This document shows, piece by piece, positions 2,459 to 19,446 of a DNA stretch of 34,660 nt. The stretch lies in the IMG/VR virus record IMGVR_UViG_3300028114_000046, positions 1 to 34,660 of that record, one strand, 5' to 3'. This DNA comes from a virus. The notes beneath the pieces were generated by a model. That model was not told the origin of the DNA, did no database searches, and worked only from the letters and a program-made list of their open reading frames with translations. Numbering within the stretch: position 1 is the stretch's first letter; every line of letters begins with the position of its first letter. The translations under genes and the position numbers were made by a program.

Positions 2459-3889
2459 ATGATAATCCTTGGAATAAATGAAACTTCTCATGATGCTTCT
2501 GTATCATTAATTAAAGATGGAGAAATACTTTTTGCTGGTCATGCTGAAAGATATAGCAAGCATAAAAATGAATGGTATATAAATGATAGTTTAGTTAATA
2601 ATGCATTAGAGTACGGAAGACCAGATTACCTTGCCTACTATGAAAAACCCGCTCTAAAGGCCTGCAGGCTGGCTTTAAATGGGGGCCTAGGAGACTGGAA
2701 ACCACGTTTTAATATTCAGGGTATACCAAGAAAATCATTTAGCCATCATTATTCCCATGCAGCAGCAGGATACTACACAAGCAATTTTAATGACGCAGCA
2801 ATAGTAGTTTTAGATTCTATTGGGGAGTTTAATACGTCTACAATCTGGGTTGGGGAAAATGAAAAAATATCATTAAAAGAAAAAATAAATTATCCATTTA
2901 GTTTTGGATTGTTTTATTCAGCCTTTACTCAGTTGGTCGGACTTATGCCAAATCAAGAAGAATATATTATGATGGGCATGGCAGCATATGGAGATTCAAA
3001 TAAATATTTAAAAAAGGTAAATGAATATTTTCCTTCTATAAAAAAACAAAAATACAATTTTCACAAAGGAATAACTGATTGGGGATGGGTTTCAGAGCAA
3101 GATAAATTTGACATTGCCGCTGCAGCACAGGCAGTATACGAAACTAGACTTATAGATTTTATGTGGCATGCTAAATATTTAACAAAAAAGAAAAATTTAG
3201 TTTTTATGGGCGGGTGTGCCTTAAACTGTTCAGCAAATACTAAACTATGGAAAATATTTAATGATGTTTGGATAATGCCTAATCCAGGAGATGCAGGCAG
3301 TTCCTTGGGGGCAGCAGCAGCACTTTATGGAAAACATTTAAATTGGAACACTCCATACTTAGGGTATGATTTGGGTAATGAGTATCCAGTTAGTAAAATA
3401 ATTAAAGGCTTGGCAGATAACAAAGTTGTTGCTGTTGCTTCTGGAAAGGCAGAGTACGGCCCAAGGGCCTTAGGAAATAGAAGTATTCTTGCAGACCCAA
3501 GAGATCCTAATATAAAAGACAGGGTAAATTTAATAAAAAAGAGAGAGCCATTTAGACCATTTGCTCCAGTTATAATGGAAGAGCATGCAAGTAAATGGTT
3601 TAATATGAATTTTAATTCTCCATATATGCAATATTCAGTTAAATGTTTAAGGCCAGAAATTATTCCTTCTGTTGTTCATGCCGATGGAACTTCTAGAGTT
3701 CAAACAGTTAATAAAGATCAACATCCAGGATTGTATGAGGTTTTAAAACAATGGAATGACTTAACTGGGGTTCCAATTTTACTCAACACAAGTTTAAACG
3801 TAAAGGGACAGCCATTATTAAATGATGAAAAAGATATAACTTTATGGGAGCAAGAATACAGCCAAAAAATTATTAGGGGTGTAAATTGA
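2459..3889 (+). CDS. NodU/CmcH-type carbamoyltransferase
   Basis: A 476-residue enzyme transferring a carbamoyl group from carbamoyl phosphate, via carbamoyl-adenylate, to a hydroxyl group, commonly of a sugar. The N-terminal Kae1-like domain starts with ILGINETSHDASVSLI, has the metal-binding type FSHHYSHAAAGYY and MGGCALNCSANTKL, and the C-terminal domain has YGPRALGNRSILADPRD and REPFRPFAPVI. It is somewhat shorter than the usual 550-600 residues, mainly in the middle. It heads the sugar-modification cassette, and its stop overlaps the next gene's TTG. Confidence 0.92.
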   Translation: MIILGINETSHDASVSLIKDGEILFAGHAERYSKHKNEWYINDSLVNNALEYGRPDYLAYYEKPALKACRLALNGGLGDWKPRFNIQGIPRKSFSHHYSHAAAGYYTSNFNDAAIVVLDSIGEFNTSTIWVGENEKISLKEKINYPFSFGLFYSAFTQLVGLMPNQEEYIMMGMAAYGDSNKYLKKVNEYFPSIKKQKYNFHKGITDWGWVSEQDKFDIAAAAQAVYETRLIDFMWHAKYLTKKKNLVFMGGCALNCSANTKLWKIFNDVWIMPNPGDAGSSLGAAAALYGKHLNWNTPYLGYDLGNEYPVSKIIKGLADNKVVAVASGKAEYGPRALGNRSILADPRDPNIKDRVNLIKKREPFRPFAPVIMEEHASKWFNMNFNSPYMQYSVKCLRPEIIPSVVHADGTSRVQTVNKDQHPGLYEVLKQWNDLTGVPILLNTSLNVKGQPLLNDEKDITLWEQEYSQKIIRGVN

Positions 3890-4530
3890 CAGGAAACAAT
3901 TTTAATGTATGGCAAGAGTCTTTTACTCAATCGTTTTTAGAGATTAATTCACAATCAAACATAAAGTCTGACTGGTTAAATTATTCTGAAATATTAAAAA
4001 CTGAATATAAAGATTGCATAATAAAACCAATTAATAAATATTTTTATAAATTATCTATTCCGCCAAAACTTGTATCTATTGAAAATAATAAAATAACTTT
4101 GTGCCAAGAAAATTTTGCAGAAATATTTTTGTTGAAAAAACAAGATAGTCTTAAATTAACTGCTATGGAAAAAATTCACATGAGACAGTTTTATTTATCA
4201 AACAAAATAAATAAAGAAAATGATTCATTATTTGATGAAGTTTATAGGTGGGCAATGCCTTGGAGTATAGATTACGAAGGTATAGAGATTAATATTGAAC
4301 CAGCCCAAAACTCCCCATTTTATTTTTATCCAATATCGTATGTGTCAAGCAAGATGCAGGGCAAGATTATAGACACTAAAATGTTATTTTTTCAATTTAA
4401 AAATAAGGGTCAGCATATGGTTGATTTAGAATATGGAAGAATTAAAAGAAATAATCCAGCGTATTTTATTAATTTTACAGTTAATGATACAATGGTAGAG
4501 GAAATAAAGGAGTTTTATGGCAAATATTAA
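3886..4530 (+). CDS. Unrecognised protein after the carbamoyltransferase
   Basis: A 214-residue, Lys/Asn/Ile-rich soluble protein without a motif I recognise. The start is TTG, overlapping the TGA of the carbamoyltransferase (ATTGA), with no alternative ATG nearby, which implies translational coupling. Its own 3' end contains AAAGGAG for the next gene. Tight linkage to a carbamoyltransferase and two glycosylation-type neighbours suggests a part in the same modification, by context only. Confidence 0.6.
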   Translation: MTGNNFNVWQESFTQSFLEINSQSNIKSDWLNYSEILKTEYKDCIIKPINKYFYKLSIPPKLVSIENNKITLCQENFAEIFLLKKQDSLKLTAMEKIHMRQFYLSNKINKENDSLFDEVYRWAMPWSIDYEGIEINIEPAQNSPFYFYPISYVSSKMQGKIIDTKMLFFQFKNKGQHMVDLEYGRIKRNNPAYFINFTVNDTMVEEIKEFYGKY

Positions 4531-5242
4531 GTTTTATCCCTTTAATCAAGAAACAGTTGATTTTACACCAGAACCACAGCCAGCATACAAACATTTACCA
4601 GATTGGTATAAGTTACAGCCAGGATACATCGGAGATGAAAAAACTTCTTTATCGAGAGGTTTCTCAGCGTCTACAGTAAAAAGATGCATGCCTATGTATG
4701 ATGTAATTAGTAGCGGATACATGATTTATTTTCCGTGTGACATATTTATAGATGCTACAAATCCAGAAAAATTATTGTATTCCGTTCCCGAGGGAGTTAA
4801 AGGAATAAAAAATACATTATTTTCTTTTCATTCCGAACAACAGGTATCTCATTATCCAAGAGAAACAGAAACGTATCATAAAGAAATATTTAGAATCTTG
4901 CCACTTTGGTCAGCAGGGACAGATAGAGGTTATAGTTGTTTGTTTACTCAGCCATTTCATAGAGAGCCAGCGCCATTTAAACTTTTTTCTGCAGTGATAG
5001 ATACAGATAATTATATTTCAGATGGATTTTTATCGATGTACATTAAAAAAGATTTTAGAGGAACAATTGAGAGAGGAACTCCAATGGCACAGATTATTCC
5101 TTTCAAAAGGGATTCTTATGAAATGTCTTTTGCAAATCCTGAAGAATCACATATGGCTTTATCAAAACAAAGATTTTTAGTTAGGAGCAAATTTAATAAT
5201 TTTTATAGAAATCATATGAGGCAGCGTAAAGATTATAAATGA
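4517..5242 (+). CDS. Unknown protein, paralog A of a tandem pair
   Basis: A 241-residue protein. It shares with the next gene a common plan: a Pro-rich start ending in P-[DE]-W-Y-K (LPDWYK), then T-x-K-[RK]-C-x-P (TVKRCMPMYD), a S/T-GY segment, a mid-domain with FTQP, and the ending KKDFRGTIERGTP followed by IIPFKRD. The start follows AAAGGAGTTTT. It may belong to the DUF6065-like group, but I cannot confirm this. The role is probably linked to the surrounding sugar enzymes. Confidence 0.7.
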   Translation: MANIKFYPFNQETVDFTPEPQPAYKHLPDWYKLQPGYIGDEKTSLSRGFSASTVKRCMPMYDVISSGYMIYFPCDIFIDATNPEKLLYSVPEGVKGIKNTLFSFHSEQQVSHYPRETETYHKEIFRILPLWSAGTDRGYSCLFTQPFHREPAPFKLFSAVIDTDNYISDGFLSMYIKKDFRGTIERGTPMAQIIPFKRDSYEMSFANPEESHMALSKQRFLVRSKFNNFYRNHMRQRKDYK

Positions 5243-5967
5243 GTAAAAAACAAAAAATAACATTTACTCCAGGGCTAGAAAATTTTAAAGATATTTATAC
5301 TCCGCCAGTTCCTGCGATATCCATGGTTCCAGAATGGTACAAGAGCCTAGCGCTATACGGACCTAGCAACGAAGAAAAAGAACTACACCCGATAAACCAT
5401 ATAGGGACAGACGGAACATTGGTTGCAACTAAAAAATGTATACCATTTTTTGATGCTTTGACCGCAGGGTATTATTATTTATTAGAAGATGATTTACATG
5501 TTGAACTAAATGAAAAAGGTTTTCCAACTTTAAGTTGGGAAGGTGATATTATGCTTCTTGATAAAAGACCCACACTTGAGGTTCCAATTCCTTCAAATTG
5601 CCATCAGTTACATTTTGGCTTTAGAATGAATTGGTTTTATTCTACCCCGCCAGGGTATTCTGTTTTAGTGACACACCCAATGAATAGATACGACTTGCCA
5701 TTTTTTACTTTATCTGGGATAGTTGACTCTGATGTTTGGGGATTGCCAGTATTTTTTTCTTTTTTCTTAAAAAGAGATTTTATTGGAACAATACCAAAAG
5801 GAACTCCTATTATGCAGTTTATACCATTTAAAAGAGATTTTTGGGAAATTGAAGTAGATAGTAGTCCTAAAGCAATAGAAGACGAAGAATTTAAAGCGGA
5901 AAAAAGAAGAACAATGGTTACTGGTTATTATAAAAAAGATGTTTGGCAAAAAAAGGAATTTAAATAA
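5239..5967 (+). CDS. Unknown protein, paralog B of a tandem pair
   Basis: A 242-residue protein, the paralog of the preceding gene: VPEWYK, ATKKCIPFFDALTAGY, VTHPMNRYDLPFF and KRDFIGTIPKGTP with FIPFKRD line up with it in order and spacing. The ATGA overlap couples the two. The products have diverged strongly outside these motifs, so the duplication is old or each was acquired separately. The conserved GTP-x-x-Q-x-IPFKRD ending suggests a shared beta-rich fold, perhaps a ligand-binding or jelly-roll domain (inference). Confidence 0.7.
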   Translation: MSKKQKITFTPGLENFKDIYTPPVPAISMVPEWYKSLALYGPSNEEKELHPINHIGTDGTLVATKKCIPFFDALTAGYYYLLEDDLHVELNEKGFPTLSWEGDIMLLDKRPTLEVPIPSNCHQLHFGFRMNWFYSTPPGYSVLVTHPMNRYDLPFFTLSGIVDSDVWGLPVFFSFFLKRDFIGTIPKGTPIMQFIPFKRDFWEIEVDSSPKAIEDEEFKAEKRRTMVTGYYKKDVWQKKEFK

Positions 5968-6869
5968 TGATTGGTATTAATGTAGTTATTTATTCCTATA
6001 AAGACAAGCATGTAATAGAAACAATAGAAAATTTATTAATAAATAGTTCTGGGTTATATTTTATTTTTGTGCACTGGCACGATCAAAACGGAGTAGAAAG
6101 ATCAAAATTATTAGATAATTTAATAAACAAATATGACAGTTGCAACGGAGCCTATGTTCACAGGGATTGGGATGATAATGATGGAGCAGTTCTTTATAAA
6201 AATAATAGATTAAACTCAATAAGAAGTGCAAAATATTTTTTATTTATAAATCCAGGAACAATTATGCAAAAAGATTGGGATAAAAATTTAATAGATTTTG
6301 TAAATAATAAAAATGTTGTTGTTTCTGGTAATCAAAAAATACAAATAAAAAATAAAAATTTATTTTTTGTTGATAAAGTTTATACTAAAAATGAAGGATT
6401 TACTTTAACTAATTATATAGATAAAAATTTTATTTTTGGAGATGTTGATTTAGTAAAAAACAATCCGTTAGGGCACTGGCAATTCCCAGGTTGGTTAAAA
6501 TATTATGGAGAAGAAGAAGTTTCTTCTTTGCAATTTTTTATAAAAGATATAAAAATTTATGCAGCAGATGAGACTATTTTAAAAATAAATAAATATTCAA
6601 CCTTGGACGACTTTGACTATTATGTTCCATTTTCTAAATACCACAACTATAATCAAGCATTACAATTATTTAAAAAAGGCTATAGTGATTTTACTCCAAC
6701 GGTGGATTTAAAAACTATAGCAAATTTTAACAATTTCCATAATTTTAATTTTAGCAACTTATCCTATTTGCCATTTTCTACAAATGACGTTGAGTATAAA
6801 ACTAGGGATTCAGAATATGATAAAATGGATGGTAGTAGATTTATAAAAAATATAAAAAAGGTGGATTAA
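5967..6869 (+). CDS. GT-A-like glycosyltransferase
   Basis: A 300-residue protein with a Rossmann-like start (IGINVVIYSYKDKHVIETI), a mid-region with YFLFINPGTIMQKDW resembling the nucleotide-sugar site region of GT-A enzymes, and FGDVDLVKNNPLGHW. It resembles GT2/GlcNAc-transferase-type proteins in plan, but a clear DxD is not obvious (DWDDNDG is the best candidate). The TAATG overlap joins it to the preceding gene and the oxygenase gene follows at once. The acceptor is unknown. Confidence 0.55.
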   Translation: MIGINVVIYSYKDKHVIETIENLLINSSGLYFIFVHWHDQNGVERSKLLDNLINKYDSCNGAYVHRDWDDNDGAVLYKNNRLNSIRSAKYFLFINPGTIMQKDWDKNLIDFVNNKNVVVSGNQKIQIKNKNLFFVDKVYTKNEGFTLTNYIDKNFIFGDVDLVKNNPLGHWQFPGWLKYYGEEEVSSLQFFIKDIKIYAADETILKINKYSTLDDFDYYVPFSKYHNYNQALQLFKKGYSDFTPTVDLKTIANFNNFHNFNFSNLSYLPFSTNDVEYKTRDSEYDKMDGSRFIKNIKKVD

Positions 6870-6870
6870 T

Positions 6871-7419
6871 ATGCACAGAATAACAGTAATTGAAGATTTT
6901 ATTAATGAAAAAGATGCGTTAAGTTTAATAATGGAAATGAACAATCCTTCTGAAATTAATGACTATCCGGAATATTATAAAAAAAGGTATGGAGGAACAT
7001 CTTTTCCATACAACAATAACGTTATGCGTATATTAAAAAAATATGGGCATAAATCTAACAACATTCATAAATCTATAAATGGATACTTAAACGATATCCA
7101 CGTATTTAAAGCGTTTGGGTCGCATTGGATTTCTGGAACAAAAGGAGATCTACACATAGATGCACAAGGACCAGAACCATTTATTGAGTGGAGCACTATA
7201 ATGTATCTTAATGATCCTTCAGAATACGAGGGCGGAGAAATTTATTTTCCAAATCAAGGTTTTACATATAAGCCTAAAAAATATTCAGCAGTATTTTTTC
7301 CAAGTGCTGGAACTGAATATGTTCATGGGATTACAGAAGTAAAATCTGGGCATAGATATACGGCTTTGTACATGCACACATCAATGCAAGAACATTTAGA
7401 TCCAGATTTTAAAATTTAA
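6871..7419 (+). CDS. 2OG-Fe(II) oxygenase (prolyl 4-hydroxylase-like), copy 1
   Basis: A 182-residue protein with the double-stranded beta-helix core of the 2-oxoglutarate/iron oxygenases. Iron ligands: H95-x-D97 (GDLHIDAQG) and His152 (EYVHGITE). Arg162 (GHRYTALYMH) would bind the 2-oxoglutarate carboxylate. YEGGEIYFP is the conserved strand between them. It probably hydroxylates a peptidyl or small-molecule substrate. AAAAGGTGGATTA precedes the ATG. It ends six bases before the tRNA pair. Confidence 0.88.
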   Translation: MHRITVIEDFINEKDALSLIMEMNNPSEINDYPEYYKKRYGGTSFPYNNNVMRILKKYGHKSNNIHKSINGYLNDIHVFKAFGSHWISGTKGDLHIDAQGPEPFIEWSTIMYLNDPSEYEGGEIYFPNQGFTYKPKKYSAVFFPSAGTEYVHGITEVKSGHRYTALYMHTSMQEHLDPDFKI

Positions 7420-7424
7420 ACTAT

Positions 7425-7497
7425 TGGCTTATAACTCAGTTGGTAGAGTGCCGAACTGTTAATTCGGATGTCCCAGGATCGAAACCTGGTAAGCCAG
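7425..7497 (+). tRNA. tRNA-Asn (anticodon GTT)
   Basis: A complete cloverleaf: seven-pair acceptor stem TGGCTTA/TAAGCCA, D-stem ACTC/GAGT, anticodon stem CCGAA/TTCGG with loop CTGTTAA giving GTT, T-stem CCAGG/CCTGG with loop ATCGAAA. The discriminator base is G. CCA is not encoded. Asn codons are very frequent in the AT-rich genes around it, so the gene may supplement host supply. Confidence 0.93.
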
Positions 7498-7500
7498 CAG

Positions 7501-7573
7501 GTCCCCATCGTCTAGTGGCCTAGGACGTCGCCCTTTCACGGCGTTAACACGGGTTCAAATCCCGTTGGGGACG
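7501..7573 (+). tRNA. tRNA-Glu (anticodon TTC)
   Basis: Acceptor stem GTCCCCA/TGGGGAC, anticodon loop CTTTCAC giving TTC, T-arm ACGGG-TTCAAAT-CCCGT, discriminator G, CCA not encoded. It lies three bases after tRNA-Asn, so the two are probably cut from one transcript. Its last 19 bases are also the 3' end of the leftward Stealth-like gene. Confidence 0.93.
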
Positions 7574-8268
7574 CAAGAGTATACTGGGTTTTCACATTTA
7601 CTTATATCAACAAATTCTTTACGAAGTATGTGTTTTTCTAAAAACTTAAATGAGTTATCTTCAGTAGAAATAAACTCTAAACTTTTATTTTTAGTATAAG
7701 TTATTGCGTTATCTGACTCGTACATCTTAACATCAATGATGGTATTTCTTTCTAATTGTGCAAAATTTCCATAAGTTGATCTTGGAAAATATGCTAAATC
7801 AATAACTTTTTTAAGCAAAGATTTTTTTATTAACATTGGAACATGAATGTCATAGTCCAGTGGGTCGTCTATTCCATTCTGTTTTAATTGTTTTAAGGTT
7901 AATTCTAAAAGTTTAATATACCTAGAGGATCGACCTAATTTTTTGTATTCAAGAATCTTATCTTCCAGCAACCCTCCATCAAAATTTTTAATTGAATTAA
8001 TTTTTTTTAAGGCAAAAAAATCATCATTCATTAAAACAAAGTCTTCTTTAATTAAATTATTATTTAATATTTCTTTTATACAATTCTTTATGTTAATAAA
8101 TTTATCTGTATCGCTAATGTTTTCAACTTGTATAAAATTTCCTACATACCATTCTGGCCTATAGCCAACTAACCAAACATCCCCAGCAGGCATGTTTTTT
8201 TCAAGAGATCTTAAAGAATACCTTAACTCTTCATTCTCTCCACGTCGACAAATATAAACGTAATCCAT
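7555..8268 (-). CDS. Stealth-like sugar-phosphate transferase
   Basis: A 237-residue protein. Near the N-terminus NEELRYSLRSLEK followed by GDVWLVGYRPEW matches Stealth conserved region 1. EDFVLMNDDFFALKK matches region 2 (YMNDDFFF), and YDIHVPMLIKKSLL matches the later His-Val-Pro part of region 2. Family members transfer hexose-1-phosphate to polysaccharides or glycans. It lacks regions 3 and 4, so it is a short form. It is the only leftward gene in the cassette and its stop lies inside tRNA-Glu. A -10 box ends six bases before its ATG. Confidence 0.75.
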   Translation of the reverse strand: MDYVYICRRGENEELRYSLRSLEKNMPAGDVWLVGYRPEWYVGNFIQVENISDTDKFINIKNCIKEILNNNLIKEDFVLMNDDFFALKKINSIKNFDGGLLEDKILEYKKLGRSSRYIKLLELTLKQLKQNGIDDPLDYDIHVPMLIKKSLLKKVIDLAYFPRSTYGNFAQLERNTIIDVKMYESDNAITYTKNKSLEFISTEDNSFKFLEKHILRKEFVDISKCENPVYSCVPNGI

Positions 8269-8302
8269 CTAAAAAGTATATCATGCTGTATAATTAAATC
8301 AA
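8269..8302. promoter_or_regulatory. Back-to-back divergent promoters of Stealth-like gene and GT fusion
   Basis: Only 34 bases separate two divergent start codons. Leftward, TATACT (complement of 8275-8280) has the extended TGA before it, a TTGATT-like -35 over 8297-8302, and six bases to the ATG. Rightward, TATAAT at 8289-8294 stands eight bases before the ATG at 8303. The -10 boxes are eight bases apart, so the two polymerases should exclude each other. Confidence 0.6.
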
Positions 8303-10213
8303 ATGGCAAAAATATTAGTTGTAAGTTCAAACTTAAAGGACTGGGAAAAAAATAGCGGTGGAAAAGAAAGAACGGCCACGCTTTTAGAGGCATTGTCAAG
8401 CCACGATGTAACATTTTTATCCTTTTCTTGGGACAATGTTGCAATTAATAAAAGGGTTAATAAATTTATTTATCAAATTCAGCCAGCAATCAATTCCAAC
8501 GTTTATAGAAAAAGAAAAGGATTGATTAAAGACTTTGCTAGACAAAATCACGACGTTGTATTTGAAATATTAAAAAAACAATTAGTAGATTTTTCTGAAT
8601 TAGCAGAAGAGTTAGCCTTACAGGCAGATTTATTAATTGTAGATCATTATTCAATTGCCCCATTAATAGAAAATATTAAAAATATTCCAATTGTATACAA
8701 TTCTCATAATTGTGAAATCTTTATGGGGGAGCAACTTTATCCTAACAACCTCGAAATGTTAAATTTAGTGGAACAAATGGAAGGCAAAATATTAAAAAAG
8801 GCAGAATTAATTACTTACTGCTCAGAAACAGATTTTAAACAATTAAAACAACACTATAAAACAGACATAGAGGGTGTTCTAATTCCAAATGGTACAGAAA
8901 ATAGAGAAAAAATAAATTATAAAAACAGATTTAATTCTAGAGATATTATTTTTGTTGGATCAGGGCACCCACCCAATAATGATGCAGCAAAAAGTGTTGC
9001 TAGTTTTGCAAAATTATTACCTGAATTTAATTTTATTATAATTGGACGCTGTGGAAATGGAATTAAGGTGCCCGAAAACATAGATAATTTAAAAATAATT
9101 GGTGAAATTAGTGATGAAGATCTAAACCAATATTTTAAAAACTCTTTTGCCTTTATAAATCCAATGAAAAGTGGGTCGGGAACTCATTTAAAAATGACAA
9201 AAGCGTTAAGTTATGGAATTCCCATAGTATCTTCAACTATGGGCGCCAGAGGGTTTTCTGATGACGAAATTAATAGCGCAATGCTTATTGCAGACACAGA
9301 AAATGAGTTGATTGAAAAATGTTTATCATTAAAGCAAGAATTTGTATATAGGGATTTGTCTGAAAACGCACATTCTGTTTCACAAAAATATAGTTGGGAA
9401 AAAATAAAAAAACAATATGCCAATTCTATTGAAAGTCTAATTGAGCATAAACCTAAAAAAAATATAGATAGTTTAACTAATAATAAAGAAAAAATACTAA
9501 TATCCACCATTATTAGAAACGATGAAGATTTTTTTATTAACTACTACCATAGAGTTGTAAGTATGGTTTCTTATTTTCCAGATTATGAATTTTATCTTTC
9601 AATTTACGAGAATGATTCTACTGACGAAACCAAGAAACTTATGCAAAATTGCGACTACTCAATGTTTAAAGGGGTATCCTTAATATCAGAAAACCTGGGT
9701 ACAAAATTTTATGGATCGACCAAAGATGAGGATAGAGTAAAAAACTTAGCAAAGGCAAGAAACAAAGCCTTAGAGGGCGGTGGATTTTTAATTGATGTAG
9801 ATTATGTTTTAGTCATAGATGCTGATGTTGAATTTAAAATGCCCTCTGTAAAAAAAATACTAGATTTTAAAAACAAAGAGCCTGAATTTAACATTGTATC
9901 CTCTGCAACTCTTAGAAGGGATCGACTATATGATGCTTGGGCAACAAGAGAGAGTCACAATTTTGATCCAGGAATACAAGAAAAGTTTGAAACTTACAGA
10001 AAAGAACCATTTAAAAAATATTATTCTGTTTCTAGCGGGTTCTGTTTATATAGGGCGTTACCATTTAAACAAGGCGTTAGATGGGGGCATATTAATCTAA
10101 TTACGCAAAAAGCAGACTGTGAGATGGTTGTAATTTGCCAAAATTTTAGCAAGATGGGATATAATGGTATATACATGGCACATGAAGCAGTTATGAATCA
10201 TAACCATAAATAA
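8303..10213 (+). CDS. Bifunctional glycosyltransferase: GT4 domain fused to CAP59-like GT-A domain
   Basis: A 636-residue protein with two catalytic halves. Residues about 1-385 are GT-B/GT4-like: NSGGKERTATLLEAL acceptor loop, IVYNSHNCE, IFVGSGHPPNNDAA, and GSGTHLKMTKALSYGIPIV as the donor-sugar motif. Residues about 395-636 begin ILISTIIRNDEDFF and contain YENDSTDETKKLM, AKARNKALE and DYVLVIDADVEF with a DxD, the pattern of CAP59/GT69 mannosyltransferases. It would add two sugars in sequence. The start follows a -10 box by eight bases with no ribosome site. Confidence 0.85.
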   Translation: MAKILVVSSNLKDWEKNSGGKERTATLLEALSSHDVTFLSFSWDNVAINKRVNKFIYQIQPAINSNVYRKRKGLIKDFARQNHDVVFEILKKQLVDFSELAEELALQADLLIVDHYSIAPLIENIKNIPIVYNSHNCEIFMGEQLYPNNLEMLNLVEQMEGKILKKAELITYCSETDFKQLKQHYKTDIEGVLIPNGTENREKINYKNRFNSRDIIFVGSGHPPNNDAAKSVASFAKLLPEFNFIIIGRCGNGIKVPENIDNLKIIGEISDEDLNQYFKNSFAFINPMKSGSGTHLKMTKALSYGIPIVSSTMGARGFSDDEINSAMLIADTENELIEKCLSLKQEFVYRDLSENAHSVSQKYSWEKIKKQYANSIESLIEHKPKKNIDSLTNNKEKILISTIIRNDEDFFINYYHRVVSMVSYFPDYEFYLSIYENDSTDETKKLMQNCDYSMFKGVSLISENLGTKFYGSTKDEDRVKNLAKARNKALEGGGFLIDVDYVLVIDADVEFKMPSVKKILDFKNKEPEFNIVSSATLRRDRLYDAWATRESHNFDPGIQEKFETYRKEPFKKYYSVSSGFCLYRALPFKQGVRWGHINLITQKADCEMVVICQNFSKMGYNGIYMAHEAVMNHNHK

Positions 10214-10221
10214 GGGGGAAA

Positions 10222-10739: not shown

Positions 10740-11324
10740 ATGAGAGATATAGAATCAATAAAAATTATAAAAAATTTTATTGATAAGGAAGACATTGTAA
10801 AATTTATTTCTTACATTAACTTAAATATTGATAAATTTAAAATAGATCCTAGAAGTACTGGTGGCAATAGATATTCTTATAAATTTGGTAAGGATGCGGT
10901 GCATTCAGAGTCTAGGCACAGCCTTGAGGAACTAAATGACATTGCAGATCTAGTAAACAAGTATACTAAAAAATCTTGTTTAACAGCACAAGAAAATTTT
11001 AATGATAAAAATGAAGTATTTCTTTCTTCTTTTTGGTTAGCAAAGCAAAGTTCTGGGGCAAGCGTTACTTACCACAAAGATACCGACGAAGACAATAACC
11101 TTCAGTTTAAATATAGTGCTGTAATATACTTAAACACTATGCTTGATGGTCAGGGAAAATTAGATTTTCCAGCGCTAAATTTTAAATATTCTCCAGAGGA
11201 GGGGGATTTAGTTCTTTTCCCTTCACAGGGAAATCAATTTTGGCACGGTGTTGATTTAATATCTGAAGAAAGATACAGCATTGCTATTTGGATGACCACA
11301 GATAAAATGTTTGAACTAACATAG
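10740..11324 (+). CDS. 2OG-Fe(II) oxygenase, copy 2
   Basis: A 194-residue protein with iron ligands H112-x-D114 (VTYHKDTDE) and His169 (QFWHGVDL), and Arg178 (EERYSIAIW) for 2-oxoglutarate. The strand motif GQGKLDFP replaces the usual GGE-x-x-FP, with Gln-Gly-Lys at the turn. It lies three bases after the nuclease. It is among the most divergent of the six copies, so a different substrate is likely. Confidence 0.85.
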   Translation: MRDIESIKIIKNFIDKEDIVKFISYINLNIDKFKIDPRSTGGNRYSYKFGKDAVHSESRHSLEELNDIADLVNKYTKKSCLTAQENFNDKNEVFLSSFWLAKQSSGASVTYHKDTDEDNNLQFKYSAVIYLNTMLDGQGKLDFPALNFKYSPEEGDLVLFPSQGNQFWHGVDLISEERYSIAIWMTTDKMFELT

Positions 11325-11813: not shown

Positions 11814-11826
11814 CATAATATAATAT

Positions 11827-11881: not shown

Positions 11882-11897
11882 TAAATAACTGGACACA

Positions 11898-11921
11898 CCT
11901 GAGCATGTGAATAAAAGGCTC
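11898..11921 (+). repeat. 3' GAGCA hairpin element, copy 1
   Basis: CCTGAGCATG at 11898-11907 is followed by AATAAAAGGCTC; GAGC pairs with GCTC. The reverse complement of this segment nearly equals the copy at 30510-30533. Here the stem is followed by TTTTC and then at once by the next promoter, so it may end hsp20 transcription. Confidence 0.6.
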
Positions 11922-11929
11922 TTTTCTGA

Positions 11930-11962
11930 TATAATAAACCTAGAATGGAAAATAAAAAATGA
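11930..11962 (+). promoter_or_regulatory. Promoter with five-codon leader peptide before oxygenase copy 3
   Basis: TGATATAAT gives an extended -10 (box 11930-11935). Nine bases later an ATG at 11945 opens the five-codon frame Met-Glu-Asn-Lys-Lys, whose TGA overlaps the ATG of the oxygenase (ATGA). The oxygenase ATG itself has no convincing ribosome site, so re-initiation after the leader peptide would explain its translation (inference). Confidence 0.45.
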
Positions 11963-12600
11963 AACATGAGATTATGGCTCCAGGAATGGTTTATTATCGC
12001 AATGCAATTATAGATCCAGAAAAAACCATTTTAACTATTGAATACATTCAAGATAAAATTACGTCTGGAGTAAACTCTGTTGCTGATAAATGGCAAGAGT
12101 GGAACGGTGCAAACCCAAATACGGAAAAGTTTTGTTTAAAACATTGGATTACTGACCCAGAAAGAGTTTCTAAAAATGATCCATTGTATCAAGAAATTTC
12201 TTTAGTTTATAACAACATATTTAATGGAATTAACAATGCTTTTACACACTATTCTAACGAAATATATCCTGCAGCATCAAAAAACATAAAGTCAACAGAG
12301 GGTATGTTGAGTATTTTAAAATATTCTAAATCTGGCTATTTACCACCACATCAGGATCAAGGGGTAAGCAGTAGGGTTTTATCTACTGTGGGATATTTAA
12401 ATGATAATTATGATGGCGGAGAAATTAATTTTCCTTATGTCGGAGTTACTGTTAAGCCAGAAGCGGGTAGCGTAATATTTTTTCCATCTAACTTTGTTTA
12501 TGTGCATGAAGTAAAACCTATGGCCAACGGTATAAGATATGCAGTTCCTCAATGGTACCATTCCCTTAAAGATCCAAGAGATTCTACTGGAGATGAGTAA
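11959..12600 (+). CDS. 2OG-Fe(II) oxygenase, copy 3
   Basis: A 213-residue protein with iron ligands H131-x-D133 (LPPHQDQGV) and His183 (VYVHEVKP), Arg193 (GIRYAVPQWYH) for 2-oxoglutarate, and YDGGEINFPYVG between. The ending Gly-x-Arg-Tyr-x-x-Pro-x-Trp-Tyr is shared with copy 4 at 16404, so these two form a subfamily. Its stop overlaps the ATG of the FmdB-like gene. Confidence 0.88.
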   Translation: MKHEIMAPGMVYYRNAIIDPEKTILTIEYIQDKITSGVNSVADKWQEWNGANPNTEKFCLKHWITDPERVSKNDPLYQEISLVYNNIFNGINNAFTHYSNEIYPAASKNIKSTEGMLSILKYSKSGYLPPHQDQGVSSRVLSTVGYLNDNYDGGEINFPYVGVTVKPEAGSVIFFPSNFVYVHEVKPMANGIRYAVPQWYHSLKDPRDSTGDE

Positions 12601-13300: not shown

Positions 13301-13301
13301 A

Positions 13302-13330
13302 TTGACAAAAAAGCAAAATGATTGTATAAT
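13302..13330 (+). promoter_or_regulatory. Consensus promoter for a leaderless mRNA
   Basis: Perfect TTGACA (13302-13307), 17-base spacer, perfect TATAAT (13325-13330), then six bases to the ATG at 13337. No Shine-Dalgarno. The transcript should start at or within a base or two of the start codon. Confidence 0.8.
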
Positions 13331-13336
13331 TAATAT

Positions 13337-13549
13337 ATGGAAGTCTTAAAAAAAGATTATAAATTTACATCTTTAGATCGATGCGATAAGTGTCAAGCAA
13401 GAGCCTGTGTCTTGGTTACTGGTGTAGTTGGAGAATTAATGTTTTGCTCTCATCACTACAATAAAATTGTAGATAACGCTGTAGGCTACGACAAAATTAT
13501 GCGTTTTATGGTTAGTGTTGTTGATGATCGAAAACAGTTAGTGTCTTAA
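13337..13549 (+). CDS. DUF7455-like small zinc protein
   Basis: A 70-residue protein with LDRCDKCQARACVLV and GELMFCSHHYNK: C16, C19, C37 and H40 form a treble-clef-like zinc site. LDRCD-x-C-x-A-x-A and GEL-x-FC-x-HH are the signatures of a small actinobacterial family that I know as DUF7455, of unknown function. This supports an actinobacterial host. Leaderless start from a consensus promoter. Confidence 0.8.
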   Translation: MEVLKKDYKFTSLDRCDKCQARACVLVTGVVGELMFCSHHYNKIVDNAVGYDKIMRFMVSVVDDRKQLVS

Positions 13550-13561
13550 TTTTAAACTTTT

Positions 13562-13897
13562 ATGAGCGATGACGAAATAAATAAGGCTATTGAAAACTTT
13601 ATAAAAACTGGGGCAATTCGGATTCAGGGAATAGATCCAGTTACAGGAGAATTTTTATATCAAATTACTGAAAAAATGAAGCATGTAGATTTAGACCTTT
13701 ATGATTCACACTTAAATCAAATATATACAGACGCTATGTATTTTTGGGAAAGAGGGTTTGTTGCTATTGACGATATAACAAGCAATAATCCCATTATTAC
13801 CCTTACTTCAAAAGCATTTGATCAAAATTCTATTAGTGAGTTGCCAAATGACAAAATTGACCTTCTTGCTAGCATTATTCAAGCACTAAAAAAATAA
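13562..13897 (+). CDS. Unrecognised acidic protein
   Basis: A 111-residue protein with a helical N-terminus (DDEINKAIENFIKTGAIRI), GIDPVTGEFLYQIT resembling the wing of a winged helix, and a helical C-terminus (DKIDLLASIIQALKK). A winged-helix or tail-accessory role is possible, neither proven. The ATG lies 12 bases after the preceding stop with no clear ribosome site; it may be expressed by read-through from the 13302 promoter. Confidence 0.6.
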   Translation: MSDDEINKAIENFIKTGAIRIQGIDPVTGEFLYQITEKMKHVDLDLYDSHLNQIYTDAMYFWERGFVAIDDITSNNPIITLTSKAFDQNSISELPNDKIDLLASIIQALKK

Positions 13898-13902
13898 ATT
13901 GG

Positions 13903-13917
13903 TGTTATAATTTAATT
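13903..13917 (+). promoter_or_regulatory. Extended -10 promoter for a leaderless mRNA
   Basis: TGTTATAAT (extended -10, box 13906-13911) lies six bases before the ATG at 13918. There is no -35 of note, as expected for an extended -10, and no Shine-Dalgarno. Confidence 0.6.
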
Positions 13918-14724
13918 ATGGATAATTGTTGCCCAGAGGAAATTATTGAAAAAAAAGCCCCCTGTTGGGAAGGTTATGTTCAGCGTGGCATGAAGCCAGG
14001 TGATGGTGGGAGAATGGTTCCTAATTGTGTTCCAGTAGAAAAAAGAGATTTGAATATTGTTGAGGGAGACTTTGTTGTTGCAATGACAACTGAAGGTGTA
14101 GTAGTTGGTCAAGTAGAACACATCATGATTGAGGGTGGAACTTATGGCCAACCAGAAAATCCATACTCAGTTGAATCTACACCAGAAAATCCGGCAGTTG
14201 CAATTAGAATGCTTGAAGAAGAAGATGGAACGTATTATTATACCCCGTATTCTATTGGCGCCTTAATGTCCAATGTAAGTAGAATAGATATGCCAAATAT
14301 TAGTTTAGAAGATTACGAAGATAAAGAAAAAATGTCTAAGGCAAAAGGATATTCTCCACCAGCAGGAGCAAGGTCTGCTGCACGTAGAGCAATTAAATTT
14401 AAAGAAGATGGAAAGGCTAATGGTGCAGGCACTGCAGTTGGTTGGACAAGAGCAGGACAGTTAGCAAGAGGAGAAACACTTTCTCTGAGTACTGTTAAAA
14501 GAATGTACTCTTATTTTTCTCGTCATGAAGTAGACAAAAAAGGTAAAAATTGGGCTAATCAGGCTAACCCATCAAATGGTTATATTATGTGGCTTGCATG
14601 GGGCGGAGACGCAGGGTTTTCTTGGTCACGCAAAATTGTTAATGCAGAAAAAGATAAAGCATTGTTTGCAGATTTTGGTAAAAAAATAAATAGTTCTATT
14701 AGATTAACAAATATTTTTAGATAA
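13918..14724 (+). CDS. Phage structural-type protein with VPNCVP and C-terminal head-assembly-like domain
   Basis: A 268-residue protein. The N-terminus PCWEGYVQRGMKPGDGG followed by MVPNCVPVEK is a motif often found at the ends of phage portal and prohead-protease polypeptides. The C-terminal domain (about residues 140-245) has AGARSAARRAIKFKEDGK, MYSYFSRHEVDKKGKNW and PSNGYIMWLAWGGDAGFSW, also recurrent in phage head-assembly proteins. The middle is acidic with a small beta domain. It probably takes part in virion assembly or as a scaffold, although no other head gene is in the window. Confidence 0.6.
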   Translation: MDNCCPEEIIEKKAPCWEGYVQRGMKPGDGGRMVPNCVPVEKRDLNIVEGDFVVAMTTEGVVVGQVEHIMIEGGTYGQPENPYSVESTPENPAVAIRMLEEEDGTYYYTPYSIGALMSNVSRIDMPNISLEDYEDKEKMSKAKGYSPPAGARSAARRAIKFKEDGKANGAGTAVGWTRAGQLARGETLSLSTVKRMYSYFSRHEVDKKGKNWANQANPSNGYIMWLAWGGDAGFSWSRKIVNAEKDKALFADFGKKINSSIRLTNIFR

Positions 14725-14746
14725 AAATAGCAAAGGCTATAAATCA

Positions 14747-15388
14747 ATGAAATTAATTAAAAACAGCAACAGTCTTGACTATCAAGAATCATTTGTCTTA
14801 AATGTTTTAAATAAAAAAAGAAATGGGTTTTATTTAGAATTAGGTTCCGCTTGGCCAATAAAACAAAATAATACCTATCTTCTTGAAACTGTTTATGGGT
14901 GGGATGGCATAGGGTTCGAAATTGAAAAAAATTTAGCAGAAGAGTACGCTGCTATAAGAAAAAATAAAATAATAAATACGAATGCAATATCTTTTGATTA
15001 TAAAAAATATTTTAAAGAAAACAATGTTCCAAAACAAATAGATTATTTGCAGATGGATTTGCACCCAGCATATAACACTCTGCACGCACTTAGAAACCTC
15101 CCACTTGACGAATACAGGTTTTCTGTGATAACATATGAGCATAATGTTTGGAGGGGGGGCGATTTGCATATCAACATTCAAAAAGAATCTCAGGCAATAT
15201 TAAAATCTTATGGTTATTTTCTAGCCATTGAAAACGTTGAAGAAGACAACGGACCCTTTGAGGATTGGTGGATAGACCCAACCTCTACTTTATACGAAAA
15301 CTACTCCCATGTTGTAGGTAAAAATAAATACTACAAAGATATTTTTATAAAAAATAACAAAAATAGGAGTAAAAATGGAAATAATTAA
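14747..15388 (+). CDS. FkbM-like SAM-dependent methyltransferase
   Basis: A 213-residue protein. GFYLELGSAWPIKQNNTY is the SAM-binding motif I in the FkbM form, WDGIGFEIEKNLAEEY the second motif with its acidic residue, and DYLQMDLHP the motif IV strand. FkbM enzymes O-methylate sugars or small molecules, consistent with a glycan cassette. SAM binding is well supported; the substrate is not. Confidence 0.75.
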   Translation: MKLIKNSNSLDYQESFVLNVLNKKRNGFYLELGSAWPIKQNNTYLLETVYGWDGIGFEIEKNLAEEYAAIRKNKIINTNAISFDYKKYFKENNVPKQIDYLQMDLHPAYNTLHALRNLPLDEYRFSVITYEHNVWRGGDLHINIQKESQAILKSYGYFLAIENVEEDNGPFEDWWIDPTSTLYENYSHVVGKNKYYKDIFIKNNKNRSKNGNN

Positions 15389-15827
15389 AAATTATTGGCC
15401 ACTGGCCTTGACAATGTGGGCTTTTTCTTCTATAATATATATATTGATTAAAATAAAAATATTATTAAATCAAAAAAAACGTTATTTTTTAAAAACAAAA
15501 GGAAGGCAAAGCACAATTCACGAATTGGTAAAAAATTTTTTACCAACAAATGAAGATTTTATTAAAATTTTAATTGCTAGAAAAGGGTATCAAAATCATC
15601 CTTCAAAGCAATCAAATCAAAAGTATCAAAAAGATAAAATAAAAGTTGTAGTTATTGAAGATAAAGCGTATTGGGTACAAGACAATACTTTTTATGAAAC
15701 CATAGTGACAGAAGATGGGAATATAGATCAAAGCCTTGCGAGACCTATTAATATAGATGAAATGAAAAAAGAGGATGTAGAAAGGCTTATGTTTATTTTA
15801 GATGACTTAAAAAGAGGGGATCAATAA
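15375..15827 (+). CDS. Unknown protein with one N-terminal membrane helix
   Basis: A 150-residue protein: membrane helix about residues 8-27 (WPLALTMWAFSSIIYILI), then a basic patch (NQKKRYFLKTKGR) and a soluble domain with DKIKVVVIEDKAYWVQDN and a charged helical end. The basic patch after the helix predicts an inner, cytoplasmic C-terminal domain. It overlaps the methyltransferase gene by 14 bases; AGGAGTAAAA is its ribosome site. Confidence 0.6.
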   Translation: MEIIKNYWPLALTMWAFSSIIYILIKIKILLNQKKRYFLKTKGRQSTIHELVKNFLPTNEDFIKILIARKGYQNHPSKQSNQKYQKDKIKVVVIEDKAYWVQDNTFYETIVTEDGNIDQSLARPINIDEMKKEDVERLMFILDDLKRGDQ

Positions 15828-16183
15828 TGCTATTAGTTGTTCAGGCAACGAATGAGTTTAACGATTACTCTGTTTTTCTACGTGCAATGGGTGTAATGCT
15901 TTCATCAATGAATCCAGAAGATAATGAGTTTGTTGTTTATTCTGTTGGTTCTAAAGAAAGCAATGTTCACAATTTTGCTATGGAATTCTGCAATCTTTCC
16001 GAAAAGGGAATGAAAGGCAGAGGTAAAAAAATAAAAAATCATAAAGTATTAGATGATTGGGTAAAAGAACACATAATGGTTTTTGATAATTTTGCATTTT
16101 TTAGTAAGCCAAATCAACCATTGTCTTTGTTGGCAAAATTTGCACAACAAAATAACACTGAACTAGGAATATTTCAACATTAA
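15827..16183 (+). CDS. Unknown small alpha/beta protein
   Basis: A 118-residue protein with a Rossmann-like pattern: MLLVVQATNEFNDYSVFLRAM, then EFVVYSVGS, then helical regions and HIMVFDNFAFFSKP. The layout is like the YspA/SLOG nucleotide-binding group, but the diagnostic residues are not clear. The TAATG overlap couples it to the preceding membrane protein. Confidence 0.6.
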   Translation: MLLVVQATNEFNDYSVFLRAMGVMLSSMNPEDNEFVVYSVGSKESNVHNFAMEFCNLSEKGMKGRGKKIKNHKVLDDWVKEHIMVFDNFAFFSKPNQPLSLLAKFAQQNNTELGIFQH

Positions 16184-16191
16184 GGAGATAT

Positions 16192-16407
16192 ATGTTAATC
16201 AATAAATTAGAGCATGCAGAAAAAATTGTTCAAAATTCTACAAATTTAAGGTGGGTTGGTTGGAATATTGTAGAAAGAACTGAAACCGAAAATGGATTTT
16301 CAAATAAATACGGTTCATTTGTTAATAATAAGTGGGGCATTGATAGGGTGTATAAACTAACAGAAAAAGGCTGGCACCTACCAAATACTTATGGTGATAA
16401 AAAATGA
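16192..16407 (+). CDS. Unknown 71-residue protein
   Basis: A short protein starting after TAAGGAGATAT. The sequence has several Trp (RWVGWNIVERTE, NNKWGIDRVYKL, GWHLPNTYGDK), suggesting a compact beta fold. Family not recognised. Its stop overlaps the ATG of the oxygenase gene (ATGATAA), so it is co-translated with copy 4. Confidence 0.6.
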   Translation: MLINKLEHAEKIVQNSTNLRWVGWNIVERTETENGFSNKYGSFVNNKWGIDRVYKLTEKGWHLPNTYGDKK

Positions 16408-17144
16408 TAAATTATGAGCCATATAAAAATTATTTTGATAAAATTGGAAGCAATAAAGAAAACATTGTTTATATTGAAGATTTTATTAACAAAGAAGACC
16501 TTGATAAAATTATAAACTATTTAAACCAACATGAAAATAATGATGAGTTTATGGGTGGAAAAGATTTAAAAGATTCTCAAATAAAGAAAGAAAATCCAGA
16601 GGTTGGTAACCTATTAGATAAATATGAAAATAAGGTGTATCAAGAAGCATATAAATTATTTACAGAAAGATATGGTGTGCCCATCAATCGTGCTGCAGTA
16701 AATTCAACTCACTGCGTTAAATGGATTCCAGGAATGAATTCTAAGTTACATTGTGATTGTGAAAAACCTGATGGAACTCCAGCACTTACTGCAGACTTTT
16801 ACAAATATAACGTATCTGTATTAATGTATCCAAATGATAACTATACGGGTGGAGAAATTACATTTCCAGATTATGATTTAGTGTTTAAACCAAAAGCAGG
16901 AAGCATGATCATATTCCCTGGCAATGGTGCGTATAAGCATACAGTAGAAAGAGTAAAAACTGGAACCAGGTACACAATGCCTTCTTGGTATTCTTTTGAT
17001 GTAAAATCTTTAGATCAGGATGATACAAAGATTAGTTGGACATATAAAGATTCTGTTCAATTGTGGGAAGGACTTCCAGACTACGACAAAATTGATCCAG
17101 TAGGCATGGATGTAAAAGGGAAAGATTTTGACGTTAAAGAGTAA
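16404..17144 (+). CDS. 2OG-Fe(II) oxygenase, copy 4
   Basis: A 246-residue protein, the longest of the six copies. Iron ligands H116-x-D118 (SKLHCDCEK) and His179 (AYKHTVER); Arg189 (GTRYTMPSWYS) for 2-oxoglutarate; YTGGEITFPDYD between. The extra C-terminal 50 residues (KDSVQLWEGLPDYDK) are not part of the core. It shares the R-Y-x-x-P-x-W-Y ending with copy 3. Confidence 0.9.
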   Translation: MINYEPYKNYFDKIGSNKENIVYIEDFINKEDLDKIINYLNQHENNDEFMGGKDLKDSQIKKENPEVGNLLDKYENKVYQEAYKLFTERYGVPINRAAVNSTHCVKWIPGMNSKLHCDCEKPDGTPALTADFYKYNVSVLMYPNDNYTGGEITFPDYDLVFKPKAGSMIIFPGNGAYKHTVERVKTGTRYTMPSWYSFDVKSLDQDDTKISWTYKDSVQLWEGLPDYDKIDPVGMDVKGKDFDVKE

Positions 17145-17424
17145 TAAATGGAAAAATGATGGTTTGTGTGTAGATTATGACACGTCAATGTTCTTTGAAA
17201 AATACGAAGAAGGTAGCGTAGAATTTAAAAACAACATAGACCAATTCTGTTTAAATTGTCCAGTCTTAAAAACTTGTTTCGCTGTTGGTGTATCTGGAAA
17301 AGAATATGGAATTTGGGGCGGTATTTATTTAGAGGAAGGACAACCTTCTAAAGAGTTTAATAGTCATAAAACAACAGAGTCTTGGGCTACTCATTGGCAA
17401 TCATTAACATTGGAAAACAAGTAA
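17128..17424 (+). CDS. WhiB-like iron-sulfur transcription regulator
   Basis: A 98-residue protein with the four cluster-ligand cysteines C14, C41, C44 and C50 (FCLNCPVLKTC) and the turn motif YGIWGGIY. Wbl proteins bind a [4Fe-4S] cluster and contact the principal sigma factor; the family is confined to Actinobacteria and their phages. The TTG start at 17128 is chosen because the first in-frame ATG lies after Cys14. The basic C-terminal DNA-contact region is weak (only Lys and His scattered), so it may act by sigma interaction alone. Confidence 0.9.
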   Translation: MTLKSNKWKNDGLCVDYDTSMFFEKYEEGSVEFKNNIDQFCLNCPVLKTCFAVGVSGKEYGIWGGIYLEEGQPSKEFNSHKTTESWATHWQSLTLENK

Positions 17425-17651
17425 TGTACACAGAGGATATGCGTAGAGCCTTTAGGTCTATTAGGCCCCCGCAAAATTTTCAAGTTGAACTTGTAGACAA
17501 TGAGCATTTTATTGTAATTCGTGCTGATGAAAAGTCTTTTGTAAGACTAGGACATGACGACAAAATAGAGGCGGTTCAGTATATGGTTAAAGTAAAAAAA
17601 GCCCTTGAAGATAACGGAGCAGTAGTCTTATTAACAAGAAAGGCTATTTAA
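17424..17651 (+). CDS. Unknown 75-residue protein
   Basis: A small protein, MYTEDMRRAFRSIRPP at the start, then FQVELVDNEHFIVIRA and a helix DKIEAVQYMVKVKKALE. The fold would be beta-beta-alpha-beta. The ATG at 17424 overlaps the WhiB stop (TAATG), which is why it is preferred to a frame-open upstream start at 17382. Possibly a partner of the WhiB-like protein by linkage. Confidence 0.65.
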   Translation: MYTEDMRRAFRSIRPPQNFQVELVDNEHFIVIRADEKSFVRLGHDDKIEAVQYMVKVKKALEDNGAVVLLTRKAI

Positions 17652-17655
17652 CGTA

Positions 17656-17829
17656 ATGATTGATCTACAAGGCACGCCAAATCATATATGCATATGTGGT
17701 TCTAAAATTTGGAACATAAAGGCAATGTTTGAAAACGGGGCTATTGCTTTATATTTTTTAGATATGAAGTGTGCTGAGTGTGGGGCAATGGTAAATCAAC
17801 CAACACGGCTAGATGGTGGAGAGATATAG
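17656..17829 (+). CDS. Small zinc-ribbon protein
   Basis: A 57-residue protein with HICICGSKIW (C12, C14) and MKCAECGAM (C39, C42), a zinc-ribbon-like arrangement. The gene lies four bases after the preceding stop and its TAG overlaps the GTG of the methyltransferase (TAGTG). It may serve as a chaperone or partner for the methyltransferase, by linkage only. Confidence 0.65.
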   Translation: MIDLQGTPNHICICGSKIWNIKAMFENGAIALYFLDMKCAECGAMVNQPTRLDGGEI

Positions 17830-18518
17830 TGCCATTAGTTCCAATAAACCCTTTAAATAACAATGAATCAGCAAAAATTGGAGAAATTGATTGTGCTTAT
17901 CTCATCCCCCAAGATCAATTAAACGATGCAAAAATATTTTCTTCTAGGGAAGATTATATAAAAACTATCCCTAAAAATATAAATTACATGGAGATAGGAG
18001 TAGCCTGGGGATATTATTCATTGTTAGTAATGAAAGAGGTTAACCCAACTTCAACAATTTTAATTGACTGGTTTAATCAAGATCTGATGTGTTGGTCTTG
18101 GAGAAAATTTGGAGAATGTAAATGTAATCCTACTCATACAATGAAATACGACAAAGACGGTCATTATGGTTTTATAAAAAATGAATTTAAAACTTTTAGC
18201 AACGTAGAATTAATAAAAGGAAATAGCGAAGAAATTCTTTTATCTTTAGATAAAAAATTTGATTACATATATATAGACATAACCAATGACAGAGATCCAA
18301 TAAGAAAAACACTTAATGAAGCAGCAAAATTAGTTTCAGTCGGGGGTGTAATTGGATTAAATGATTATATTATCTATGATGGTATAATAGAAGACAAGCC
18401 TTATGCAACTTATCAAGTTGTAAATGAGTTTTTATATAAAAATAAAAATTGGTATGTTGATGCTATTTCTTTGCACGTTTTAGGATTTCACGATATATAC
18501 ATAAAAAGGAGATTTTAA
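17829..18518 (+). CDS. Class I SAM-dependent methyltransferase
   Basis: A 229-residue protein. NYMEIGVAWGYYSLLVM is motif I, STILIDWFNQD motif II, KFDYIYIDITND motif IV, and LVSVGGVIGLNDY the post-motif strand; this is the Methyltransf_24/macrocin-O-methyltransferase plan used on sugars. The GTG at 17829 overlapping the preceding TAG is preferred to a GTG at 17778, which lies inside the zinc-ribbon gene. Confidence 0.78.
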   Translation: MPLVPINPLNNNESAKIGEIDCAYLIPQDQLNDAKIFSSREDYIKTIPKNINYMEIGVAWGYYSLLVMKEVNPTSTILIDWFNQDLMCWSWRKFGECKCNPTHTMKYDKDGHYGFIKNEFKTFSNVELIKGNSEEILLSLDKKFDYIYIDITNDRDPIRKTLNEAAKLVSVGGVIGLNDYIIYDGIIEDKPYATYQVVNEFLYKNKNWYVDAISLHVLGFHDIYIKRRF

Positions 18519-18519
18519 C

Positions 18520-19446
18520 ATGCCAAATAAAGAAAACAAAAATTTTTTTAGTGTACTCATGGATAATATGTCCGTATTTAATGATCTTTATGGATGTAAA
18601 TTTGATAACACTTGGCACGATAATTTTGGTAACAAAACTGGTCAAACTTATTCTATAATCCCTGGCGAAAATGCAACAGATGACGGTGATGTAAAATATA
18701 TATATAATTCACAAAATTTTAGATCAGACAATTTTACAAAAACCCATAATGGAAAACATATATTATTTGCAGGTTGCTCTGAAAGTGAAGGAGAAGGGGC
18801 AAATATTGAGGATGCATGGACAAATATTTTATACAAAAAAATTTCTAAAAAAGAAAAATGCTCTGGTTTTTTCAATCTTTCTCGTTCTGGTTGGGGATGG
18901 AGTAAAATTATTTTAAACTCTTTGATTTACTTTAAGGAGTACGGATATCCAGACGTAATGTTTGTTTTATTGCCAAACTGTCAGAGAAAATTTGTTTTTA
19001 GTGAAACTGAATTTTTAGATTCTATGGGAAATCCATTAGGGCACTGGCAATATCAGCAACATTATCCAGAAATAGAAATAGATCATAAACAGAAAAAAGA
19101 TGCTAGGGAGTGGTTCACAAATTCAAAACAATATAACGAAGACTTTGTTAATTTTTTAATTAATTGGAAAACTTTTAATGAGTTATGCAAAACTAACAAT
19201 ATAAAACTATTTTTTTCTACATGGTCCAACACTGATATTAAAAATTTGCTTAAAATTAACATTTTTAGTAATTTGGTTAATGTTAATCCAGGAAAAGTTG
19301 GCGTAGAAAAAATGACTGTTGATTACTACAAAGATCATGAACCAAAAAGCAATGATGTATTTAAAAGAGATGGGCATAGTGGCAGAATTTTTCATAATTT
19401 TTGGTCAGAAATATTTTATAAAAAATATAAAAGTGAGAACGATTAA
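18520..19446 (+). CDS. SGNH/GDSL-like hydrolase
   Basis: A 308-residue protein. ILFAGCSESEGEG (Ser87) fits the block I nucleophile motif (here Gly-Cys-Ser), SRSGWGWSK the block II Gly, VLLPN the block III Asn, and RDGHSG the C-terminal Asp284/His286 dyad in the form D-x-H instead of D-x-x-H. The family removes acetyl or acyl groups, often from glycans. AAAGGAGATTTTAAC precedes the ATG. No signal peptide. Confidence 0.72.
   Translation: MPNKENKNFFSVLMDNMSVFNDLYGCKFDNTWHDNFGNKTGQTYSIIPGENATDDGDVKYIYNSQNFRSDNFTKTHNGKHILFAGCSESEGEGANIEDAWTNILYKKISKKEKCSGFFNLSRSGWGWSKIILNSLIYFKEYGYPDVMFVLLPNCQRKFVFSETEFLDSMGNPLGHWQYQQHYPEIEIDHKQKKDAREWFTNSKQYNEDFVNFLINWKTFNELCKTNNIKLFFSTWSNTDIKNLLKINIFSNLVNVNPGKVGVEKMTVDYYKDHEPKSNDVFKRDGHSGRIFHNFWSEIFYKKYKSEND

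Follow-up and report, generated by a model that had tools for sequence, protein, structure and literature searches.

A widely conserved operon of freshwater phages as a candidate system for the hydroxylation and glycosylation of repeat tail fibres

Positions 2459-7419 of the viral contig IMGVR_UViG_3300028114_000046, analysed here over its whole length of 34,660 bases (the window), form a conserved unit of overlapping or abutting genes which encodes an O-carbamoyltransferase (CARB), the protein X214, two DUF6065-type proteins (D241 and D242; family D24), a divergent GT-A protein (GTA) and a 2-oxoglutarate (2OG)-Fe(II) oxygenase (2OG-a; Table 1). We propose, with a probability of roughly 0.4, that this operon serves to modify proteins within the cytoplasm of the host, and that its targets are most likely the tail-fibre proteins of the phage itself. 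The proposal is built on gene content, conserved gene order, predicted folds and the linkage of the block to fibre genes in relatives, from which we infer substrate, order of reactions and product. The block is common to many freshwater phages, and the paper searches made returned no report of it. A search for a near-identical isolate phage gave no close relative of the contig.

An earlier note had read positions 2459-19446 as one glycan-modification cassette, unusual in its combination within one phage. These boundaries are too wide, because SNase, HSP20, zinc-ribbon, WhiB and tRNA genes are interspersed within the region and the Stealth-like gene lies on the other strand. Nor is the combination unusual, as relatives of CARB are encoded on 548 viral stretches and the core occurs in dozens of lineages. 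Not mentioned in that note were the two D24 proteins of the operon and the 2OG oxygenases, four of which, with intact HxD...H sites, lie inside 2459-19446, with two further 2OG-type genes just after it.

The constancy of the block is apparent from 80 loci that were fetched with GTA, independently of CARB, and that fall into 36 lineages sharing less than 80% identity. The most constant partner of GTA is a 2OG gene, which follows within three genes in 36 of 36 lineages and directly in 29, while a D24 gene, or the alternative gene c68, directly precedes GTA in 35 of 35, X214 is present in 34 of 35 and CARB lies at most five genes away in 24 of 33. The gene order stays stable while the identities of the glycosyltransferases drop to 23%, and the genes surrounding the block differ among lineages. 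In the set fetched with CARB (80 loci kept, 22 lineages) the block X214-D24-D24-GTA-2OG was likewise seen repeatedly. Gene synteny in related phages, proposed in the earlier note as a check, thus shows a core block that is conserved and linked to fibre genes, but does not show the whole stretch to be one unit.

The core probably decorates the phage's own fibres, because the blocks of relatives often adjoin proline-repeat tail-fibre genes; through this synteny the earlier suggestion of virion proteins as target gains support. Examples of tail-fibre proteins that combine fn3 domains with extended (GFSPF)n or (FFPPFFPFF)n repeats are encoded at L279:1236-2564, L287:1192-2550 and G203 89373-90746. 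A gap of 5-6 bp separates the block from a preceding fn3 fibre gene with (GFSPF)n repeats in the loci L279, L287 and L289, the last of which also has a LamG-like tail protein following; in L272 one unknown gene stands between the repeat fibre gene and the block. The near-complete relatives G203, G204, G218 (the closest long record bearing the Stealth/GT4-CAP59 gene pair described below) and G221 possess proline-rich repeat fibres with 2OG, D24, X214 or c68 genes behind them; G221 additionally has a true GT60 gene directly behind another repeat fibre. As circularity was to be avoided, an independent set of fibres was collected solely with the DNA pattern encoding GFxPFGFxPFG. A gene of a block family lies among the next three genes in 66 of these 73 fibres and, after dereplication, in 23 of 26, compared with 17.8% of 533 control genes. 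Since the c68 family is unproven, the statistics were also calculated with c68 excluded, whereupon 30 of 38 fibres had a block-family gene within five genes versus 26% of controls.

Some repeat fibres are directly followed by sulfotransferase-like genes (PF03567; L389:3299-4033 and L390:4197-4922), and a Hint-like motif is found in 19 of 80 repeat tail-fibre proteins. Collagen-like repeats were considered as a general substrate and rejected, as only short segments were present, in 4 of 16 records; the GFxPF repeat is therefore taken as the candidate. On prolyl hydroxylation of phage tail fibres, none of the literature found dealt with phage hydroxylases, as far as titles and abstracts tell.

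The enzymes encoded by the block are compatible with such a substrate. In 2OG-a the iron site H95-x-D97...H152 and R162 are intact, none of the residues H95, D97, H152, G160 and R162 varying among 28 orthologues, and the profile of these orthologues finds significant PDB matches only among prolyl hydroxylases (P3H1 2.8e-8, bacterial P4H 7e-5), which by sequence 2OG-a resembles. GTA scores with PF11397 at E=0.025 and 14.5 bits and does not reach the Pfam cut-off of 21, which two GTA relatives within blocks exceed with 23 bits; its profile aligns over most of its length with the true phage GT60 of G203 (PF11397 E=1.7e-31). The predicted GTA model (pLDDT 75) is nearest to polypeptide N-acetylgalactosamine (GalNAc)-transferases (Foldseek E=2e-8; VIA Z 16.7 against GalNAc-T2 with 240 residues aligned and rmsd 3.4), the first 29 rows all belonging to this family; direct PDB sequence matches were obtained neither for GTA nor for D24. 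In G203, a SPASM-domain protein, the true GT60 and an NAD-dependent epimerase are encoded consecutively (97621-99999) in the tail-fibre gene region. Both CARB domains, Carbam_trans_N and Carbam_trans_C, score above the Pfam cut-off, and HHYSH at 96-100 (HxxxH) and the aspartate of PGDAGSS align with 7xb6, residues which we take to be the metal site of TobZ-type enzymes.

As to the D24 proteins, D242 matches PF19541 at 1.4e-5, slightly below the cut-off, and its predicted model (pLDDT 73) resembles dUTPases (Foldseek 5.9e-4, VIA Z 9.8), every listed row being a dUTPase. The conserved stretches GIVDSD and GTPxxQ of D24 resemble what are presumably dUTPase motifs III and IV; the remaining catalytic motifs, of five, were not located in D242. 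X214 is possibly a distant relative of D24 (hhalign E=3.5e-5 over 83 columns). In haloarchaeal viruses D24 homologues adjoin tail-fibre/adhesin genes, as in virus HF2 (AF222060 48119-49003; L327), where tail-fibre genes are near and a ribonucleotide reductase gene lies alongside. A search of about 200 host-order genomes, run without a positive control, found no D24, the plasmid gene context of DUF6065 gave nothing informative, and no paper on DUF6065 was found in the literature.

The combination of 2OG-a and GTA recalls the Skp1 pathway of Dictyostelium and Toxoplasma, in which a cytoplasmic prolyl-hydroxylase-like oxygenase is paired with a GT60-type transferase that adds N-acetylglucosamine after proline hydroxylation (PMC6939170). 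In contrast to that pathway, the phage operon adds a carbamoyltransferase, DUF6065-type proteins and X214, its GTA does not possess the GT60 metal motif and its substrate is putative. On account of this Skp1-type enzyme pairing and the fibre linkage, hydroxylation and glycosylation of repeat fibres is the best explanation of the operon. 2OG-a would hydroxylate proline, or else an adjacent residue, in repeats of the (GFxPF)n kind, GTA or its true GT60 sisters would transfer a sugar onto the hydroxyl so formed, and CARB would carbamoylate a hydroxyl of the sugar or of the side chain. In the window's lineage the Stealth-like and GT4-CAP59 proteins may extend the glycan, while the DUF6065-type proteins and X214 may be accessory, with the dUTPase-like fold, as a guess, used for binding rather than for nucleotide hydrolysis.

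Several observations weigh against fibre decoration. The window does not carry a fibre gene and its block adjoins an endolysin gene instead, and no CARB was observed in those copies of the block that adjoin fibre genes. In GTA the GT60 metal motif DxH reads NPG and is variable across the GTA family, while the G203 GT60 has DSH; GTA may therefore be inactive or work differently. The gene c68, considered as a 2OG enzyme, shows a motif only, with no profile support, and is unproven as an oxygenase. A dUTPase-like fold has no obvious role in the scheme, and in the fibre comparison the control genes stem from five genomes only and the related phages are non-independent samples.

Some probability, although a low one, falls to a modification of glycans or glycoproteins of the host envelope late in infection, with superinfection exclusion, receptor masking or receptor release as the outcome, because the block is often near an endolysin gene (25 of 36 lineages). 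A secreted protease is encoded nearby, relatives have genes in the vicinity for apparent surface proteins whose C-terminal motif is of host type, one carbamoyltransferase in a host-order genome adjoins an apparent glycosyltransferase gene, and large cyanophages carry lipopolysaccharide-type genes, the role of which is unknown (PMC3037559). On the other hand, the fibre-gene linkage would not be expected, the prolyl-hydroxylase-like partners suggest protein substrates, and no gene for nucleotide-sugar synthesis or export was recognised among the scanned window proteins. Of the earlier proposal that the genes could build, carbamoylate, methylate and trim a sugar, glycosyl transfer and carbamoylation fit, but the building of the sugar is unsupported, and nothing specific points to the blocking of rival phages.

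It is also rather improbable that the genes tailor a small-molecule product or are loosely linked cargo genes with no common product; related carbamoyltransferases (GdmN, TobZ, novobiocin) do tailor natural products and the genes flanking the block do vary, but neither the very stable gene order nor the marked overrepresentation next to repeat fibres relative to control genes fits such a view. Least probable, and disfavoured, is a modification of nucleotides or DNA bases, in which an oxygenase makes a hydroxyl that a glycosyltransferase or CARB caps and dUTPase-fold proteins handle nucleotides: a phage enzyme that shares both Pfam domains of CARB produces 5-carbamoyloxymethylcytosine (MetaGPA; PMC8670742), and D242 and the ribonucleotide reductase gene beside halovirus D24 homologues would suit this reading, but the thymidylate-synthase homologues co-occurring in the MetaGPA phages have no counterpart, nor does a hydroxymethylase, in 30 related records (some incomplete, the window itself being a fragment), the block sits in the lysis or fibre region apart from replication genes, carbamoyltransferases of unmodified contigs neighbour glycosyltransferases (PMC8670742), and the 2OG profile matches prolyl hydroxylases.

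Among other known systems, the cyanophage Nol-like carbamoyltransferases share the phrog_1601 family and the presence of several 2OG genes per genome (PMC3037559), with CARB being 28-43% identical to them. Virion glycosylation in mycobacteriophages (Freeman et al. 2023, as cited in PMC10955285) provides, as far as that citation goes, actinobacterial phages with glycosylated particles, whereas the present operon couples a hydroxylase with a carbamoyltransferase and has repeat tail fibres as its candidate substrate.

The host of the phage is probably a freshwater actinobacterium, because the window encodes WhiB (17128-17424), a marker for assigning phages to Actinobacteria (PMC6802176), and a trypsin-like protease (19603-20598; PF00089 1.2e-10) with the C-terminal tail CVKGKxxKKV...KKK, the motif CVKGKxxKKV of which was carried in a genome scan mostly by freshwater actinobacterial genomes. 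Relatives of the protease in bacterial genomes were not found, and the motif search was used in place. Speculatively, and on balance doubtfully, the operon may represent a dedicated pathway of freshwater actinobacteriophages in which proline-aromatic fibre repeats are hydroxylated, glycosylated and, in many lineages, carbamoylated or sulfated, a viral counterpart of hydroxyproline-linked glycosylation that has recruited dUTPase-fold proteins.

With respect to the remaining genes of 2459-19446, the carbamoyltransferase, Stealth-like protein, GT4-CAP59 fusion and class I methyltransferase named in the earlier note were recovered by profile, albeit below the cut-off in the case of Stealth, and the GT-A-like enzyme by its predicted fold. 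The FkbM-like and SGNH assignments were read from motifs, and the profile libraries gave no match for either, with 14747-15388 giving none in Pfam, PHROGs or NCBIfam. Among the loci fetched with GTA, the Stealth-like gene is invariably accompanied by GT4-CAP59, which in L041/L242 is split into two separate open reading frames, and the pair belongs to the window's own lineage group. The methyltransferase at 17778 is rare (2 of the first related loci). The SGNH-like family, with 78 copies in 48 loci, keeps the GCS block and the C-terminal histidine, the aspartate position being shifted in the window protein, and adjoins CARB in 13 of 22 CARB lineages. Genes for tRNA-Asn and tRNA-Glu (7425-7574) lie directly behind the operon, and a TP_methylase-family protein (24042-24749) resembles the 16S rRNA methyltransferase RsmI; a relative of the window protein adjoins a 2OG gene in L079.

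Table 1. Features of the operon 2459-7419 and further genes of the window, with the evidence for each assignment
Feature	Position	Strand	Basis
CARB, NodU/CmcH/TobZ-type O-carbamoyltransferase	2459..3889	+	PF16861 E=1.1e-53, PF02543 2.4e-37, phrog_1601 1.6e-107; TobZ, GdmN in PDB
X214, constant first gene of the glycosyltransferase block	3886..4530	+	no library match; synteny; hhalign to D24
D241, phrog_7084 protein, DUF6065-like	4517..5242	+	phrog_7084 1.5e-42; VIDTD and GTPMAQ kept
D242, phrog_7084/DUF6065-like, predicted dUTPase-like fold	5239..5967	+	phrog_7084 4.6e-35
GTA, divergent GT60/GT27-like GT-A protein	5967..6869	+	predicted fold; profile link to true GT60
2OG-a, prolyl-hydroxylase-like 2OG-Fe(II) oxygenase	6871..7419	+	PF13640 8.3e-9
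Stealth_CR2-like protein, accessory in window's lineage	7555..8268	-	PF11380 2.3e-6 (below Pfam cut-off); phrog_7999 8e-48
GT4-CAP59 (GT69-like) fusion glycosyltransferase, accessory in window's lineage	8303..10213	+	PF13692 1.3e-11, PF11735 3.1e-13
2OG-b oxygenase	10740..11324	+	PF13640 5.2e-9
2OG-c oxygenase	11959..12600	+	PF13640 4.8e-14
FkbM-like methyltransferase, possible	14747..15388	+	motif reading only
2OG-d oxygenase	16404..17144	+	PF13640 1e-9
Class I methyltransferase	17778..18518	+	PF13578 2.3e-8
SGNH-hydrolase-like protein	18520..19446	+	no library match; conserved G85-C86-S87, H286
2OG-f, 2OG-type protein	21017..21640	-	phrog_2954; HFD...H motif; no Pfam match
2OG-e oxygenase	21633..22307	-	PF13640 7.8e-7

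Of greater interest than the gene list is the conserved core, a widely conserved phage operon with a likely function in tail-fibre decoration. For the 2OG oxygenases and 'Nol-like' carbamoyltransferases of phages, which are common in aquatic phages yet unexplained, it offers a concrete and testable role, and for DUF6065 a predicted fold. These observations suggest that the way in which phages adsorb to bacteria that rank among the most abundant in fresh water may be shaped by the chemistry of the fibre as well as by its sequence.

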